Part shown: positions 2,774-11,550 of the stretch, one piece after another
How the letters are laid out: every line of letters starts with the position of its first letter
Numbering within the stretch: position 1 is the first letter of the stretch
Source: Burkholderiales bacterium
GTDB taxonomy: Bacteria; Pseudomonadota; Gammaproteobacteria; Burkholderiales; Burkholderiaceae_C
NCBI GenBank assembly: GCA_011391155.1
Contig: JAABRA010000220.1
Location: 1-64,000 of the forward strand
DNA length: 64,000 nucleotides
Direction of reading: 5' to 3'
The notes under the pieces: generated by a model
Told to the model about the DNA's origin: nothing
Database searches by the model: none
What the model saw: the letters and a program-made list of their open reading frames with translations, nothing else
Translations under genes and position numbers: made by a program

Positions 2774-4984
2774 GTGCGCCTGCCGCTGATGGCGTCGGGT
2801 CGTCCGTCCGCCATGGCCGGCCTGCCGGGCGCAGCCTGGGGCGGCGGCGCCAATGCGTTCGCCAGCCTGGCCCTGGTGCTGACCATCGGCCTGGTGGCTT
2901 TTTCACCGCTCGGGGCTGCCGCGGCGCCCGTGGGAATCGCGGCGTCCTTTGCGGCGGTCATCGCTGGGGGCTTCGTCTACGCGCTGCTGGGCCGTGTGGC
3001 CGTGCCCTGCGGCGGCCCGAGTTCTGCGACGGCCCTGATTCTGGCCGGCCTCGTGGCCCAACTGGTCCGCGACCCGGCCCTCGACGTGTCCACGGCCGGC
3101 GGGCTGGCAAGCCTGGTCGCCGTGACGGCCGCCACCATCGTCCTGATGGGCGCGCTGCAGGTGATGTTCAGCCTGCTGGGATTGGGTCGGTTCGCCCGGT
3201 TTGTACCGCAGCCGGTACTCGCCGGCTTCATGAACGCCGTCGCGTTGATGATCCTGGTGGCACAAGTGCCCCCCCTGCTGGGCCTGCCGGCACTGGCTGC
3301 GCCGGGCGATGCCACCCCGCTGTCAAGTATTCAGCCCCTGACATTAGCGGTGGGGCTGGCAACGGCGATTTCGCTCTGGGTGATGCGCTGGAAATGGCCG
3401 CACGCGCCGGCGCCGCTGGCGGCCCTGGCGGTGGGGGCTGCCGTCTACGCCGTGCTGGGGGCTGTCATTCCGGGGTCCCAACTCGGCCCGGTCGTGGGCG
3501 CCCTGCCGCAGGGCGTCGCGCTGCCGGACGCCCTGTTCCGGTTTTCGGATCCGGATACCTTGGGCCTGCTGCGTCGTCACGCCAGTGCGGTAGGGCTCAC
3601 GGCGGCGGTGCTCGCGGTCATCGGTTCACTGGAGTCGCTGCTCGCTGCCGCGGTCATCGACCAGCTCACCGACACCCGGCACGACGGTCGCCGTGAGCTT
3701 ATGGCCATCGGACTGGCCAATACGGCCAGCGGCGTCTTTGGCGGCTTGCCCCTGGTGCTGTCCCAGACGCGCGCCATGACGCTGATCGATGGCGGATCGC
3801 GAGGACAGGGCGCGGTTGTCGCCGCGGCCGTGGTCTTTGCCATCCTGTTCGCTGTCGGGGGCCCGCTGATTGCCCTCATCCCCAGGACCGTGCTGGCGGG
3901 CGTCATGCTCACCATCGCTGTGGCCATGGTCGACCGCTGGACCCGGCAACTGGTGCGCCAGTTGTATGCGCGTGAGTTTTCGTCCGATCTGCGGCTGAGC
4001 CTGGTGCTGGTGGCGGCGGTGTGCGCAACGACCGTGGCGATGGGTTTCGTCGCCGGAATTGCTGCTGGCGTGCTCCTGTCGATGGCCGTTTTCATCCGCA
4101 GCATGAACCGATCCCTGGTGCGCGGCCGTTTCAGCGCCGCCGAACGCCCGTCACGAAGGGTCTACGGGCTTGCGCAGGAAGCGTTGCTTGCGCATTCCCG
4201 CCAGCGTGTGACGGTGCTTGAACTGGAAGGTGCGCTCTTCTTTGGAACGGCAGAGCGACTGGCGGTTGAGGCCGGCAGGCTCCCCCCCGATTGCGCCTGC
4301 CTGGTGCTTGACCTGCAGCGCGTCAACATCATCGATGAGTCGGGCGCCGTGCTGCTGCAGGATCTGTCCCGCCGGCTGGCACGACACGGCATCCCGATGT
4401 TGCTCGCCGGGGTGACCACTGACAGCGCGCACGGGCGCCGTCTGCAGGCCTATGGCTGTTTTCGCGAGCGCCCGCGCGAAGACTGGTTCCGGGATACCGA
4501 CCATGCCATCGAGGCAGCAGAACAGCGCTTTCTGGCGCAGGCACACGTCGCCGAGTCGCGCACCGAGGCGCCGCTGGCGCAGTCGCTGCTCCTGCGGGGA
4601 CTGGCATCCGCGCAGGTCGAGCAGGTCCTGAAATTGATGCCCGCGCAACACCTGTCCGCCGGGACCTTGCTGTTTCGCCAGGGTGACCCGGGCGACCGGG
4701 TCTACGTGCTGACGCAGGGTTCAATCTCGATCGTGGGCGGCCGCTCGGAACCCCGGCAGCGCTATGTGAGCTATTCCCCCGGCGTCATGCTGGGCGAAAT
4801 TGCCATGCTCGACGGCGGTGGTCGGTCGGCTGACGCCATCGCCGATAGTGACGCCGTGGTGTTTTCACTGTTGCGCACCGACTTCGATGCACTTTCCGCC
4901 GCTGATCCTGCTCTGGGTGCGCGTCTTCTGCGCAACATCGCCCTGCATCTGGCAGACCGCCTTCGAAGCTCGGCGTCGAGGTGA
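2774..4984 (+). CDS. SulP family anion transporter with STAS and C-terminal cyclic-nucleotide-binding domain
   Basis: 736 aa; SulP-like membrane region, STAS (VLDLQRVNIIDESGAVLLQDL), cNMP cassette (GTLLFRQGDPGDRVYVLTQG...GEIAMLDGGGRSA). GTG start. Confidence 0.87.
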   Translation: MRLPLMASGRPSAMAGLPGAAWGGGANAFASLALVLTIGLVAFSPLGAAAAPVGIAASFAAVIAGGFVYALLGRVAVPCGGPSSATALILAGLVAQLVRDPALDVSTAGGLASLVAVTAATIVLMGALQVMFSLLGLGRFARFVPQPVLAGFMNAVALMILVAQVPPLLGLPALAAPGDATPLSSIQPLTLAVGLATAISLWVMRWKWPHAPAPLAALAVGAAVYAVLGAVIPGSQLGPVVGALPQGVALPDALFRFSDPDTLGLLRRHASAVGLTAAVLAVIGSLESLLAAAVIDQLTDTRHDGRRELMAIGLANTASGVFGGLPLVLSQTRAMTLIDGGSRGQGAVVAAAVVFAILFAVGGPLIALIPRTVLAGVMLTIAVAMVDRWTRQLVRQLYAREFSSDLRLSLVLVAAVCATTVAMGFVAGIAAGVLLSMAVFIRSMNRSLVRGRFSAAERPSRRVYGLAQEALLAHSRQRVTVLELEGALFFGTAERLAVEAGRLPPDCACLVLDLQRVNIIDESGAVLLQDLSRRLARHGIPMLLAGVTTDSAHGRRLQAYGCFRERPREDWFRDTDHAIEAAEQRFLAQAHVAESRTEAPLAQSLLLRGLASAQVEQVLKLMPAQHLSAGTLLFRQGDPGDRVYVLTQGSISIVGGRSEPRQRYVSYSPGVMLGEIAMLDGGGRSADAIADSDAVVFSLLRTDFDALSAADPALGARLLRNIALHLADRLRSSASR

Positions 4985-5080
4985 TCCGTGTGGCTGCTTT
5001 CAGTAAAGCCGGCAATATTTCGCTCTGGAGGCGTTCCGACGGACACTCGCCCCCTGACTTCAAGGCGCAAACCGTTTGCC

Positions 5081-5482
5081 CTAGTTCATCGCCATCTTGT
5101 CGGACACCCCGTTCACGCCATAGGTACGTTTGGTAATCCGGACAGCCAGATCACGTGCGTCAGGATTTCCGGGGCGTCCACCGAGCTCAACAACACCTTT
5201 GGTCACCTGAACCGTCAGCGAACCAGCGGCGGGACCAAGGTTTGCGACGAGTCCATTGCGCACCCGTGCGGCTGTCGCGTCATCCTCGGAGTAGGGAAAG
5301 TACGGAATTGCCCGCGGGTAACCAGGCTGGTGCTCCTCAACTGTGGTGAAGTATGAGGTGACGCGTGAGGTGAGGCCCGAGGCATATGACGTGGCGCCTG
5401 ACGCAAATCCTGTGGTGCAGGCAGACAGATTCAACCCGGCGATCAGCGCACCAGCAAGGGCAAGGGGCTTCAATATCTTCAT
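5081..5482 (-). CDS. BON domain-containing lipoprotein-like protein
   Basis: MKILKPLALAGALIAGLNLSACTTG lipobox-like signal; VTKGVVELGGRPGNPDARDLAVRITKRTYGVNGVSDKM resembles BON. Confidence 0.75.
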   Translation of the reverse strand: MKILKPLALAGALIAGLNLSACTTGFASGATSYASGLTSRVTSYFTTVEEHQPGYPRAIPYFPYSEDDATAARVRNGLVANLGPAAGSLTVQVTKGVVELGGRPGNPDARDLAVRITKRTYGVNGVSDKMAMN

Positions 5483-5632: not shown

Positions 5633-6094
5633 ATGAGCAACAGCGTGAAAATATTCAGCGCCCTGATGGTTTGGAGTCTCGCAGCAATGCCACTGATGTG
5701 CCAGGCCCAGGCGGAACCCGTTGGGTACGTGAAGACCGTGAAGGGCTCGGCGTGGGTCACCACCAGTGGGCAACGCGTACCAGCGCAACAGGGCACTGCC
5801 GTGCTGATGGGAAGCCAGCTCAAGACAGCGGCGGGCGCGTCGATGGGTGTGACCTTCAAGGACGACACGGTGATGTCGTTCGGGCCCGACACCGAGCTGA
5901 CGGTGGATGAGTATCTTTATGCGCCGGCAAAAGGCCAGTTAAAGCTGGCAACGCGCCTTGACAAGGGTACCTTGACCTATGTCTCGGGCGTGATTGCCAA
6001 GCTCAAGCCGGACGCGGTGTCGGTCAAGACACCGAGCGGCATTATCGGTGTGCGGGGCACGAGCTTCATGGTCAAGGTGGACGACGTCGAATGA
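5633..6094 (+). CDS. FecR domain protein
   Basis: GYVKTVKGSAWVTTSGQRVPAQQG...VKTPSGIIGVRGTSFMVKV typical of FecR domains; signal peptide. Confidence 0.8.
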   Translation: MSNSVKIFSALMVWSLAAMPLMCQAQAEPVGYVKTVKGSAWVTTSGQRVPAQQGTAVLMGSQLKTAAGASMGVTFKDDTVMSFGPDTELTVDEYLYAPAKGQLKLATRLDKGTLTYVSGVIAKLKPDAVSVKTPSGIIGVRGTSFMVKVDDVE

Positions 6095-6777
6095 ATCGTC
6101 CCATCCCCGGTTCCCTGCCAGGCATCGGACTGCTGCTGGCTGCCTTTTTCACCGGTTGTTCGAGCCAGTTGCCGATACCGGATATCCCAAGCTCCTTCAA
6201 TGTGCGCTCGGAAGAGCCTCGGCCGGAAAAGCCCCAACCGGTGAGGCATCCTCCCTCCTACGTCGTCCTGCTGACCAGCCCGGACGGCACGGTCGGCCGG
6301 GTCATGGTCACCGGGCAGCGCGGCGAGCAGGTGCTTACCCAGGCGCAACAAGGGGCCTGGCTGGACGGAAGCGGCACGCCTTTCACCCTCGACAAGGCGG
6401 CGATTGAGCGTGACTTCAACGCTGCGCTGGCGGCACGCCCCCCCATCCCCGAGCATTTCCTGCTCTATTTCGAAATCGGGGGGACGGTTCTGACGACCGA
6501 GTCCAAGGCCGTGATGAAACGCCTTCTTGACCGGGCTCGCTTGTTTCCAACGCTGGATATTTCGGTCGTGGGTCACACCGATACCCTTGGGAAATCCGAG
6601 GCCAACGAGGCCCTGGCGCTCAGCCGGGCCCGATTGATCGCCAGCGAGCTTCAACGACTTGACGTCAGGAACATGGCGGTCGTCGTTGAATCCCATGGCG
6701 AGCGCAACCTCCTGGTGCCCACAGCGGACGAGACTCCCGAGCAAAGAAACCGGCGCGTGGCCGTGACCTTGCGATAA
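6091..6777 (+). CDS. OmpA family protein
   Basis: LLYFEIGGTVLTTESKAVMKRLLDRA...ISVVGHTDTLGKSEANEALALSRARLIASEL OmpA C-terminal motif; overlaps preceding FecR gene by 4 nt. Confidence 0.85.
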   Translation: MNRPIPGSLPGIGLLLAAFFTGCSSQLPIPDIPSSFNVRSEEPRPEKPQPVRHPPSYVVLLTSPDGTVGRVMVTGQRGEQVLTQAQQGAWLDGSGTPFTLDKAAIERDFNAALAARPPIPEHFLLYFEIGGTVLTTESKAVMKRLLDRARLFPTLDISVVGHTDTLGKSEANEALALSRARLIASELQRLDVRNMAVVVESHGERNLLVPTADETPEQRNRRVAVTLR

Positions 6778-6790
6778 GCCTCAGGGACGT

Positions 6791-8983
6791 CTACTTTTCC
6801 GCCATGGTGATCAGGTCATCCGTGCCCCCTTCACGCAGTTGCCGCAGGTGTAGCAGCACCAGGGGATCTTTCGGATAACGCTTGAACAGCGCCTCAAAAC
6901 TGGCCAGCGCCATCGCCGGCCCTTCGCTTTCGCCGCTGCCCGGCTGCAAGAGACGCATCGCCGCATCATATTCAGCGGGCGTGGCGCACTCGGCCGGATT
7001 CGTGGCCGCCAGCGGCTCATACACCTGCAAGGGATGGCTTTTCCCCTTCAGGACCAGTCGCCCGACCGCCCGTACTGGCACGTCAGGGCAACCGTCCACG
7101 ATGGCCTGCGAGAGGCAGACTCGCGTTCCCAGATGCTTGTTGACACTCTCCAGGCGTGCCGCGGTGTTGATCGGGTCGCCCAGCGCGCGATAATCGAAAA
7201 GGGTCTTCCCGCCGAAATTGCCAACGATCACCTCGCCGCTGTGAATTCCGATGCGGGTGTGCCCCCAGGCGACGCCCTGGGAGCGCAGGCGGGCAGAGTA
7301 GGCCGACGCGAAGGTGTCCATCTCCATGGCGCAATCAAAGGCGCGCTGGCGATGGTCGGGTTGCGGCACCGGTGCCGAGAACAGCACGGCCACCGCGTCG
7401 CCCACGATCCGGTCCAGAGTGCCTTCATGCCTGAAAACAATGGCCAGCATCGCATCCAGGTAATCGTTGAGCAGGGACACCGCCTGCGCCGGGTCGCCGG
7501 ACTCCATCATGCTGGTGAATCCCGCCAGGTCGGTGAATACAAAACTGCAGACCTGCCGCTGTCCGCCAAGCTGGAGCTGTTCCGGATGGGCAACCAGGTG
7601 CGCCACCCGGTTCGGCGAGACATAGCGTGAAAAGGCCTCGCGCACCCATCGCTGCTCGCGTTCGCTGACCAGGTGGTGCAGGCCGCTCCCCAAGGCGAAG
7701 CTGAGGGCTGTGGCCAGCGCCGGATTGGCGGCATCGAGCAACAGGTGCTGGTTCACGAAGGCGTACCAGGCGCCGCCCAGAAGGGCGCCCAGTACCGCGG
7801 CCGCAACCCACGTCGCCCACCAGACCGGCGCGGCGAGCGCGAACAGCCCGACGATCAACGGGCCCAATACCAGCGCCAGGGCCTCTGCGCCGCCGGCCCA
7901 GGGCGGCCGCTGCAGGTGTTGTCCCAGCAAGACTTGCTCCAGCGCCAGCGCATGGGCCTGCACGCCGGGCATCATTTCCCCCATCGGATTGAATCGCAAA
8001 TCCATCAATCCGGCGGCCGAGCTGCCAATCAATATGATGTGGCCCTCCAGCTGGTCGGCGGCGACCTTGCCCTCCAGGACCTGCGCCGCCGAGACATACC
8101 GCGCCGGCTGTTTCTCCGTGTAATGCAACCAGACTTCGCCATGCGCATTGGTGGGTACCGTGACATCCCCAATGCGCACATCCTGCACGCCGGCCTCGTT
8201 GCTGCGCAACACGTGATTGCGGGCGCCCTGCGCCACGCGCAACGCCTCGGCGCTCAAGGTGGGCACGATCTTGTCTCCCAGATGCAGCATCAGCGGCACC
8301 CGCCGGACCACGCCGTCAATGTCAGCAGCGAAGTTCAAGGCGCCCAGCCCGGCAGCATTCGCGCTGAGCAGCGGCAACGGCCAGACCACGTTGTCAAATC
8401 CATGCAGCCACTGCCCCGGTTCAATGGTGCCCGTGCTCACGACCCGGTAGGGCAACGCTGGCGCATCGCGTGTGGTCGCCGCATCGGTGCGGGACTGGCC
8501 GGAACGCGACAGGCTGCTGCCCAGCACCACGTTCCGGTCTTTCATCGCGGCCCCCAACGCGGCATCATGATCGGGCAAGCGCGACAGCGACGCCCGGACC
8601 CGCGCGTCTTGCCAGAGGTCGGCCATGGCCAGCGGCGATGTCCGGTCGGGTTCAGCCAGGATCATGTCGAACACGATCGCTGCGGCGCCAGCTTCATGCA
8701 GGCGCTGCACCAGTTCAGCCACCCGCGTGCGGGGCCAGGGCCATTGCCCGTAGGCCTTCAGGCTGGGCTCGTCAATATCCACCACGCGCACCGCGGCGGG
8801 TTCGTAGGGCCGCGGGAACCAGCGCTGGAACTGATCGAATTGCGCCAGACGCAGACTCTGCAGCGGAATGGGATCGATCAGCCATAACGTCAAGGCCGTC
8901 AACGCAACCGACAGCATCAGGGCCAAGGCCGCGATACTGGACAACGCGCCGGGAAGCAGCCGTGTCCGGAGGTCTGCGAGCAT
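6791..8983 (-). CDS. CHASE2 domain class III adenylate/guanylate cyclase
   Basis: 730 aa; CHASE2-like N-terminus, transmembrane segments, cyclase domain FTDLAGFTSMME...DRIVGDAVAVLFSAP...GIHSGEVIVGNFGG...LGDPINTAARLE. Confidence 0.9.
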   Translation of the reverse strand: MLADLRTRLLPGALSSIAALALMLSVALTALTLWLIDPIPLQSLRLAQFDQFQRWFPRPYEPAAVRVVDIDEPSLKAYGQWPWPRTRVAELVQRLHEAGAAAIVFDMILAEPDRTSPLAMADLWQDARVRASLSRLPDHDAALGAAMKDRNVVLGSSLSRSGQSRTDAATTRDAPALPYRVVSTGTIEPGQWLHGFDNVVWPLPLLSANAAGLGALNFAADIDGVVRRVPLMLHLGDKIVPTLSAEALRVAQGARNHVLRSNEAGVQDVRIGDVTVPTNAHGEVWLHYTEKQPARYVSAAQVLEGKVAADQLEGHIILIGSSAAGLMDLRFNPMGEMMPGVQAHALALEQVLLGQHLQRPPWAGGAEALALVLGPLIVGLFALAAPVWWATWVAAAVLGALLGGAWYAFVNQHLLLDAANPALATALSFALGSGLHHLVSEREQRWVREAFSRYVSPNRVAHLVAHPEQLQLGGQRQVCSFVFTDLAGFTSMMESGDPAQAVSLLNDYLDAMLAIVFRHEGTLDRIVGDAVAVLFSAPVPQPDHRQRAFDCAMEMDTFASAYSARLRSQGVAWGHTRIGIHSGEVIVGNFGGKTLFDYRALGDPINTAARLESVNKHLGTRVCLSQAIVDGCPDVPVRAVGRLVLKGKSHPLQVYEPLAATNPAECATPAEYDAAMRLLQPGSGESEGPAMALASFEALFKRYPKDPLVLLHLRQLREGGTDDLITMAEK

Positions 8984-9009
8984 GATCGACGCCGTCGAAA
9001 GGCGGGGGA

Positions 9010-10908
9010 CTATTCGCCAGCGCGCGCCGCGGCGACCGGGTCGGGTCGTTTCGACCGCGGCAGGAAGGGCTCCAGGTCTGCGGCGCTCATGGCCGACAGG
9101 ACCTCGGCGCCATGCGCATGGCCCTGCTTGACGATGTTGTCAAACTTCTCCCACTGCAACATGCCCACACGATCCAGCGGCGGATTGAAATACAGATCAG
9201 TGATCTTCTGCGCCTCGCGCTGGCGAGAAATGCTGTACAGAATGGTGACGTTCATCAGGTACGCCACCAGGGATGGCAGCTTGTACCGGCGTTTGCTGCG
9301 CGGACGCAGCCGGTCGCGCAGCAGGGCCCAGCTGCCAGGCACCTCCTCGTTTTCAATATGCCGGGGTTTTCGGGGACTCAGGTCCACGCCGATCACCTTG
9401 CCGACGCCGCGCATGCTGCGCATCACATCCACCGGAAAATTGTTGAACGTCCCGCCATCGAACAGGATGTCTCCGCCCTGGATCACAGGCGGCAGCGCGC
9501 CCGGAATCGCGATGCTGGCCAGCATCGCCTTCACCAGGTTGCCCTGATGAAACCGATGCTCGCTGGCCTTGGAGTAATTGCTGGCAACGCAGAAATAGTT
9601 CTTCCACAGGTCTTCGACATTGGCATTCGGGCCCACCAGTTCCTGGATCGCGGTCTCGGCGATGCCGCGAAGGCGCCGTCCGGCAATCAGCGAGATCACC
9701 GGCACCAGGTTGAAATCCCCCGTGGGGTTGGTGCTGAAGGCGCGGCGGGCGATACGCATGACATCTTCGAAGGAGCGATCGGAGGCCACCAGCGCCGCCA
9801 TGACGGAGCCAATGCTGGTGCCGCCCACGAAATCGATCTCGATGCCGCGCTCCTGCAGCGCGTTGAACAGGCCCAGGTGCGCGCAGCCCCTGGCGCCGCC
9901 ACCGGCCAGGACCAGACCCACCGCGGTGCGGCTCTGGATGCGCGCCAGGCGGGCCATGTCCCGGTCCAGGGCGGGACGAATATGGACATGGCTGGTCACG
10001 GGCCTGCGCGCCAGCCAGCGGTGCGTGCCCGAAGGGCAGACCAGATCCGCCGGGTGCAGCAGCACCAGGGTTTCTGCCGCCTCGGCGCGGCCAGCTCGCT
10101 GCATCAGGAGTTCCCGTTCGGTTTCATGCAGCACCGGTTTTTGCGCGGCATCCGCGAGCAACAGCACCTCGTCGCAGCACCGGATGCAGCGCTGCGTCCA
10201 CGGTGTCGGCCCATCGTCGCCGACGAGCAGCACAAAGTCGTGGACCGCTTCGATCCTGTCGAGTTGCAGGGCAATGCGGCGATTCACGTCCGCGTCGTTG
10301 CCGTCGCTCTGGGCCAGTCCTGGCTGCCCGGACTCCTGGTCGATGCAGGCGGCGTCCACAATCCGGACCCGGCCGATGCCCTGCAACTGCTCGGCCAGAC
10401 GCTGCGCGAACGGACCGAGCTGAACCTCCTGCGTGATCGGCAGCAGGGCGATCGTGACGGGCCGCGCCAGTTCGGATCGGCTCTGGGAGTTTTGCAGCCG
10501 CTTGATGATCTGGCGCGTCAATGCGATGGAGACCTGGGCGCTGTTCGACAGCAGGCTGGCGAACTCGCTCTTGGCCAGCCGCACGAGGACCGAGTCACGG
10601 ATCGCGACCACCGTGGCCGATCGGGGGTCGTCCGTGTACAGGCTCATTTCACCCATGATCTGCCCGCGTGCCATTTCGCGCACCACGCGCTCGACCCCAT
10701 CCTCGTCGCGCACATAGACGCGCAACCGGCCGCTGATGGACAGGTACATGGAGTCGCCGGGATCGCCTTGCGCCATCAGCGTCTCGCCTGCCGCAACGGC
10801 GACCCACTCCAGATGCTGGCGCAGCAAATCCAGGGCGGCCTGATCGATGTCGCCGAGAAAGGTCCGGAGATTCTGTTCCAGGAGTTCGTTCTGGTAGTTA
10901 TTCGTCAT
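9010..10908 (-). CDS. cNMP-binding domain patatin-like phospholipase (NTE/RssA-like)
   Basis: cNMP cassette GETLMAQGDPGDSMYLSISG...GEMSLYTDDPRSATV; patatin motifs GGGARGCAHLG, GGTSIGS, FDGGTFNNFP. Confidence 0.9.
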   Translation of the reverse strand: MTNNYQNELLEQNLRTFLGDIDQAALDLLRQHLEWVAVAAGETLMAQGDPGDSMYLSISGRLRVYVRDEDGVERVVREMARGQIMGEMSLYTDDPRSATVVAIRDSVLVRLAKSEFASLLSNSAQVSIALTRQIIKRLQNSQSRSELARPVTIALLPITQEVQLGPFAQRLAEQLQGIGRVRIVDAACIDQESGQPGLAQSDGNDADVNRRIALQLDRIEAVHDFVLLVGDDGPTPWTQRCIRCCDEVLLLADAAQKPVLHETERELLMQRAGRAEAAETLVLLHPADLVCPSGTHRWLARRPVTSHVHIRPALDRDMARLARIQSRTAVGLVLAGGGARGCAHLGLFNALQERGIEIDFVGGTSIGSVMAALVASDRSFEDVMRIARRAFSTNPTGDFNLVPVISLIAGRRLRGIAETAIQELVGPNANVEDLWKNYFCVASNYSKASEHRFHQGNLVKAMLASIAIPGALPPVIQGGDILFDGGTFNNFPVDVMRSMRGVGKVIGVDLSPRKPRHIENEEVPGSWALLRDRLRPRSKRRYKLPSLVAYLMNVTILYSISRQREAQKITDLYFNPPLDRVGMLQWEKFDNIVKQGHAHGAEVLSAMSAADLEPFLPRSKRPDPVAAARAGE

Positions 10909-11112
10909 TGCGTCAGATCCATCCAGCGGCATCAAAAAAAAACCTGGCCTCGATGGAAACACCGGTTTCCTTGAGTTTCAGGGGGAGGGCCCAGTGTAAA
11001 GGGACCATGACCGGGGCGCCAGAAAGGCTGGCGACGCAGACACCCGCGTTGTCAAACTGTGGCGCAGCCGCGACCGCCTGCGCACGCAAGGCGGCGTTTC
11101 GGTACGCCGGTT

Positions 11113-11550
11113 TTACCGGGTGATGACCACCAGCACGCTGCAGGGCGCGTGCTCGATCAGCGCCTTGGAAATGGAGCCGCGCCACCAGCGCGCTGCCCAG
11201 CCGTCCAGGTGCTTGTGGCCCACCACGATCAGGTCGGCCTCGATGCGCTGGGCGCAGCTGACAATTTCGCTCACGGCGTCGCCCGTCACCACTTCGCCGC
11301 GCGCGGCCAGCCCCTTGTCGGCGAGCCGGCGCAGGCCCAGGTCGAGGGTTTCCTGAAAGCGGGTTTTTTCGTCGGTCTGCGCCGCCTCGTCATACACGCC
11401 GCCCTCGGGCCCGATGACGGACAGCGGCAGCGGCATCACCGCGATCAGGGTGAGTTCCGAATGGCTCCATTGCGCGATTTCCTGGCAGTCCAGCAGGGCC
11501 TGCTGTCCCGGCTCGGACCCGTCGTAAGCGAGCAGAATTCGTTTGTACAT
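11113..11550 (-). CDS. Universal stress protein family
   Basis: MYKRILLAYDGSEPGQQAL...ADLIVVGHKHLDGWAARWWRGSISKALIEHAPCSVLVV. Confidence 0.85.
   Translation of the reverse strand: MYKRILLAYDGSEPGQQALLDCQEIAQWSHSELTLIAVMPLPLSVIGPEGGVYDEAAQTDEKTRFQETLDLGLRRLADKGLAARGEVVTGDAVSEIVSCAQRIEADLIVVGHKHLDGWAARWWRGSISKALIEHAPCSVLVVITR

Follow-up and report, generated by a model that had tools for sequence, protein, structure and literature searches.

The patatin and cyclase genes

The window analysed here, a 64,000-nt stretch of contig JAABRA010000220.1 from a Burkholderiales bacterium (assembly GCA_011391155.1), carries on its reverse strand the gene of an NTE-type patatin phospholipase (632 amino acids, 9010..10908), followed by that of a CHASE2 receptor-type class III nucleotide cyclase (730 amino acids, 6791..8983), with 26 nt between the patatin stop and the cyclase start. 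Both assignments are based on open reading frames, Pfam matches and AlphaFold models (mean predicted local distance difference test scores of 87.5 for the patatin and 87.3 for the cyclase). A sequence-only reading of this DNA had taken the two genes for an apparent operon in which an envelope signal leads, through a cyclic nucleoside monophosphate (cNMP), to phospholipase activity, and had considered a role in phage defence. A check of the sequence bore out its description of both reading frames, their strand and the gap between them, and the cyclase identity and patatin motifs that it reported are confirmed below; it overlooked the NTE_Ploop domain of the patatin and two convergent genes, for FecR and OmpA proteins (5633-6777).

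The patatin shows the Pfam domain order cNMP-binding (PF00027 cNMP_binding, 1.8e-23; residues 37-122, 10543..10800), NTE_Ploop (PF24179, 1.1e-27; residues 152-318, 9955..10455) and patatin (PF01734, 6e-27; residues 332-495, 9424..9915). An upstream GTG at 10962, in the same frame, would give a protein of 650 amino acids; the ATG at 10908 is favoured because orthologue alignments begin at residue 3-15. The phosphate-binding cassette GEMSLYTDDPRSATV (residues 86-100, 10609..10653) includes E87 and R96, and the Ser-Asp dyad, S365 (9816-9814) and D484 (9459-9457), lies in the motifs GTSIG and DGG. These phosphate-binding and catalytic residues are intact in the window, and G86, E87, R96 and A98 of the cassette are invariant in 21 orthologues together with S365 and D484. 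The dyad pattern (GxSxG and DG[GA]) and an oxyanion glycine stretch are those of NTE-type enzymes, and 118 of 119 patatin loci carry G.S plus DG or DA. Since it contains the NTE_Ploop domain, the protein is assigned, from its sequence, to the bacterial NTE/PNPLA6-7 branch and not to generic patatins or to CapV of CBASS. Foldseek searches with its model matched PlpD (5fya) for the catalytic domain and the CRP family for the cNMP domain.

In the cyclase, an extracytoplasmic CHASE2 sensor (PF05226, 2.2e-60; residues 28-373, 7865..8902) is bounded by transmembrane (TM) segments predicted from hydropathy at residues 8-41 and 362-411, and is followed by a class III catalytic domain (Guanylate_cyc, 2e-16; residues 478-649, 7037..7552) for which Foldseek returned Cya2, CyaB and CyaC. 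As expected of class III enzymes, the metal-binding residues D485 and D529 and the N606/R610 transition-state pair are present, and they are invariant among cyclase orthologues. The base-specifying positions are both arginine codons, R525 (7411-7409) and R599 (7189-7187). This Arg/Arg combination is invariant throughout the subgroup of CHASE2 cyclases associated with FecR and OmpA; remoter CHASE2 cyclases have Lys and Thr at the two positions, and in the closest solved cyclases, 6fht and 2w01, the first position is occupied by Lys or Glu. EaPycC likewise has an Arg four positions ahead of its second metal Asp (PMC11224242). R525 was considered as a sign of cCMP synthesis and dropped, as a single position is insufficient and other specificity residues differ.

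Directly downstream of the cyclase, and convergent with it, are genes for a FecR-domain periplasmic protein with an N-terminal signal sequence (153 amino acids, 5633..6094, forward strand; PF04773, 3.6e-10) and for an OmpA-domain lipoprotein-like protein with a lipobox-like start, LAAFFTGC (228 amino acids, 6091..6777, forward strand; PF00691, 3e-14). The two genes overlap by 4 nt.

Linkage of patatins to class III cyclases

Patatin neighbourhoods were compared in 118 non-redundant NTE-type loci, comprising 38 from genomes of the window's family or their paralogues, others from GTDB genomes of several phyla, and the window; neighbour clusters, which contain antisense reading frames, were checked against Pfam before use. 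A class III cyclase gene lies within 1 kb of the patatin in 13 of the 118 loci, usually on the same strand. These neighbours are CHASE2 cyclases (the window, L081 and L178), a REC-cyclase (L076), AAA-TPR cyclases (L080 and L162), short cyclases with one TM segment (L116 and L117) and membrane cyclases with two to six (L123, L128, L136, L144 and L158). With the window excluded, cyclase density falls from 54 genes per Mb within 1 kb of the patatin to 14 at 1-3 kb and 2.7 at 3-7 kb, a difference of about 20-fold between the nearest and farthest intervals (p = 1.3e-6); for comparison, genomes of the family carry about 2-3 cyclases each. Mapped on the patatin tree, the linkage requires 11 changes, at least seven of them forced by supported branches. 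The Glu and Arg of the cassette are kept in all 14 linked patatins (the 13 and L078) vs 89 of 105 unlinked ones, a difference that is not significant.

The linkage was seen again in a replication set: 30 more loci from the family were examined, about 25 of them new relative to the GTDB loci, and three of their patatins (L233, L249 and L251) have a cyclase within 1 kb. The patatin of L233 is the closest relative found of that in the window, at 69% identity. In L251 (4339-7876) a REC-cyclase, a patatin and a small cNMP-domain protein are encoded on one strand with 4-nt overlaps at each junction, to judge from the sequence the cleanest apparent operon of the cyclase-patatin kind seen. The two Saccharospirillum loci (L116 and L117, ~5950-7700) show a patatin, a divergent short cyclase and then a small cNMP-domain protein. 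Short proteins with cNMP and NTE_Ploop regions and no patatin domain are encoded beside a full patatin gene at L121 (6241-7512) and L237 (3204-4472); these are possibly regulatory subunits or truncated copies.

The particular combination of the window was followed through 401 genomes of its family. An orthologue of the patatin occurs in 51 and one of the CHASE2 cyclase in 32. Both occur in 14, against 4.1 expected (p = 1.5e-5, window genome excluded and relatedness uncorrected). Contrary to expectation, no conserved CHASE2-patatin operon emerged, and most relatives are without one: the two genes are close together in three of the 14 genomes, in three gene orders. Besides the window, these are G115, where patatin and cyclase share a strand 20 nt apart and are flanked by OmpA and FecR genes, and G042, where patatin, FecR and OmpA genes lie on one strand with the cyclase convergent. 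The sister species G787 has OmpA, CHASE2 cyclase and FecR genes in the order of G115 with no patatin between them. In two species of one genus (L267, 3963-7677, and L081, 7119-12439) the OmpA, CHASE2 cyclase and FecR genes are identically ordered, and just one of the two has a patatin gene separating OmpA from the cyclase. In other genomes the usual neighbour of the CHASE2 cyclase is FecR, as a rule together with OmpA, and not a patatin. The conserved partners of the CHASE2 cyclase are FecR and OmpA. The linkage that exceeds chance is that of the patatin with some class III cyclase, and the exact pair is the weaker association.

A possible cyclic nucleotide switch for an NTE-type phospholipase

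The input domains of the patatin-linked cyclases (CHASE2, REC, AAA-TPR, 4-6 TM) are unrelated to one another, and it is because NTE-type patatins recurrently adjoin such unrelated class III cyclases that cyclic nucleotides are proposed as the patatin switch. The window itself combines an adjacent, co-directional cyclase gene with a protein holding an intact cNMP cassette. We therefore consider it moderately likely that the two genes form a sensor-effector module in which an envelope signal is converted, through a cNMP, into lipid turnover by the phospholipase. The chain put forward by the sequence-only reading accordingly survives as the best-supported one, strengthened by recurrent patatin-cyclase adjacency and by the FecR and OmpA partners. 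In such a module the two genes would be co-transcribed. FecR and the OmpA-type lipoprotein would report the state of the envelope or cell surface to the periplasmic CHASE2 domain, and the cytoplasmic cyclase domain would then produce a cyclic mononucleotide. Binding of this messenger to the single cNMP domain of the patatin would turn on its (lyso)phospholipase activity, and membrane lipid would be deacylated and remodelled under envelope stress. Different lineages may have wired the same patatin switch to different sensors by way of a local cyclase. Acting on lipids would suit the enzyme family, and also the acyl-CoA and CoA enzymes that relatives often encode next to the patatin. Genes for an acyl-CoA synthetase, a thiolase or a CoA-transferase are neighbours of many patatin loci, which is suggestive at most since such genes are abundant and no background rate was computed.

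Several results weigh against this mechanism. The exact CHASE2-patatin linkage is confined to three genomes, and in the other genomes with both genes the two are separated by tens to hundreds of kb or lie on different contigs. A linked cyclase accompanies only a minority of NTE-type patatins, and none of 40 remoter patatin loci in a separate phylum-wide sample has a cyclase nearby; the linkage is thus a feature of certain lineages and not of NTE-type patatins as a whole. No terminator-like site was seen in the intergenic gap (8984..9009, reverse strand), but a promoter and terminator scan gave chance-level matches only, and a clear Shine-Dalgarno sequence was not found ahead of the cyclase. 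The Lys and Asp/Thr that specify the substrate of adenylyl cyclases are absent from the window cyclase, whose activity and product are uncertain because R525 and R599 replace the canonical Lys and Thr/Asp. On the patatin side, T127/S128 of CRP correspond, in a gapless reading, to S141/Q142, and so the nucleotide is not predictable from either protein.

The separation of the two genes in most genomes that have both could also mean that no dedicated circuit joins them, the patatin reading the global cyclic AMP (cAMP) pool and the FecR-OmpA-CHASE2 module having been inserted beside it by chance. That the CHASE2 cyclase retains FecR and OmpA without a patatin in many genomes agrees with this. So does L075, where the genes for a SulP anion transporter (in the window at 2774..4984, forward strand), the patatin and a CoA-transferase are together without a cyclase module between SulP and patatin; the CHASE2 module may therefore be an insertion in the lineage of the window. 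Chance proximity accounts poorly for patatins that recurrently adjoin many unrelated cyclases, and for a CHASE2 module and patatin that stay together in three different arrangements, and we regard this explanation as rather unlikely.

Another alternative is that the cNMP domain responds to a protein contact or another ligand, serving a structural or localising role without binding nucleotide, as in human NTE, while the cyclase feeds CRP-type regulators. The CRP base-contact positions are indeed not conserved in the patatin, and nucleotide or cAMP binding has never been demonstrated for human NTE (PMC6995513, PMC9319352), which also tells against the proposed cNMP switch. The phosphate-binding Glu/Arg pair is nevertheless invariant in window-type patatins, unlike in some distant relatives, and we regard this alternative as improbable.

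The SulP transporter carries a STAS domain and a C-terminal cNMP-binding domain and is possibly a second effector of the same messenger; transporters of this type are also encoded close to the patatin in four other loci (L073, L075, L113 and L114). Among the remaining neighbours, an acetyl-CoA hydrolase/transferase fused to a GNAT domain (705-2705) adjoins the patatin in eight related loci, and its GNAT domain resembles the cAMP-dependent mycobacterial acetyltransferase Pat. A universal stress protein gene (11113-11550) is immediately upstream of the patatin on the same strand; a mycobacterial Usp is known to bind cAMP (PMC11107214). A YihG-type LPAAT gene is also upstream on that strand. The 4988-5356 frame (122 amino acids), between SulP and FecR, matched no family and is probably not a gene.

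Comparison with known systems

The sensor side of the window has counterparts in which the output is different. Sinorhizobium CyaD1, CyaD2 and CyaK, with NsrA, likewise combine CHASE2 receptor cyclases with envelope proteins (PMC7529298, PMC5498481), and the FecR-domain gene SMc02177 is next, by number, to cyaD1 (SMc02176; PMC5498481); the output there is the CRP-type regulator Clr, and no patatin is involved. The Burkholderia BiofilmReg operon pairs a FecR/LysM protein with a CHASE2 sensor (PMC5192318), which is fused to a histidine kinase instead of a cyclase.

Linked genes for a class III-type cyclase and a cNMP-domain effector are also known from Pycsar (PycC with PycTIR or PycTM; PMC11224242), and this resemblance is one ground for considering anti-phage abortive infection, in which infection would trigger the cyclase and the patatin would destroy the host membrane. 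CBASS includes patatin effectors, Foldseek finds AbCapV with the window patatin, and the PycC and PycTIR profiles match at the domain level. Yet the best PADLOC matches span only the common cyclase or cNMP domain, that of PycC, a cyclase producing cCMP or cUMP, being confined to the cyclase domain, and with the CBASS lipase profile the patatin reaches 18.8 bits where the cut-off is 200. The effector is a cNMP-NTE_Ploop-patatin lipase and not a cNMP domain joined to TIR or TM segments as in Pycsar, and the cyclase is a class III membrane receptor with a CHASE2 envelope sensor and FecR/OmpA partners, not the CD-NTase that accompanies CapV-type patatins in CBASS. PADLOC identified no defence protein among ten neighbours, the SulP transporter matching through its cNMP domain only, and the neighbours in relatives are metabolic, mostly acyl-CoA and CoA enzymes along with SulP. 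The defence role entertained by the sequence-only reading thus appears very improbable.

The envelope-responsive phospholipase module preferred here bears on human NTE/PNPLA6 and PNPLA7, which are linked to paraplegia and organophosphate neuropathy. These enzymes share with the window patatin the cNMP, NTE P-loop-like and patatin domains in equal order. They differ in having an N-terminal TM segment, three cNMP domains and no linked cyclase, whereas the window patatin has one cNMP domain only and no hydrophobic segment before residue 476 (650-amino-acid frame). A bacterial NTE relative beside its own cyclase offers a simple system for the question of cNMP gating in NTE, including which nucleotide is involved, and switching of the enzyme by a cNMP would be a form of regulation not demonstrated for the human protein. 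A broader idea, tentative and on the doubtful side, is that bacterial NTE-type patatins are true cNMP-gated phospholipases that have repeatedly recruited class III cyclases with varied sensors, that the version in the window, with its Arg/Arg CHASE2 cyclase and possibly a messenger other than cAMP, drives envelope lipid remodelling, and that this reflects the ancestral regulation of NTE/PNPLA6.

The best known outputs of cNMP signalling in bacteria are transcription factors. If the proposed module is real, a direct lipid-enzyme output would join them, and an output would be assigned to FecR-OmpA-CHASE2 cyclase modules, which are widespread yet poorly understood. A description of a patatin-cyclase operon was not found in searches of an open-access library. 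Apart from Pycsar, a precedent is the arrangement of XC_0250/XC_0249 in Xanthomonas campestris (PMC3770947), where, as in the window, a class III cyclase gene is linked to the gene of a cNMP-domain effector. That cyclase is a soluble TPR protein and the effector output is a GGDEF domain (c-di-GMP), whereas the window has a CHASE2 receptor and a phospholipase. The pair described here would add a phospholipase effector to the known arrangement of a linked cyclase and cNMP-domain effector.

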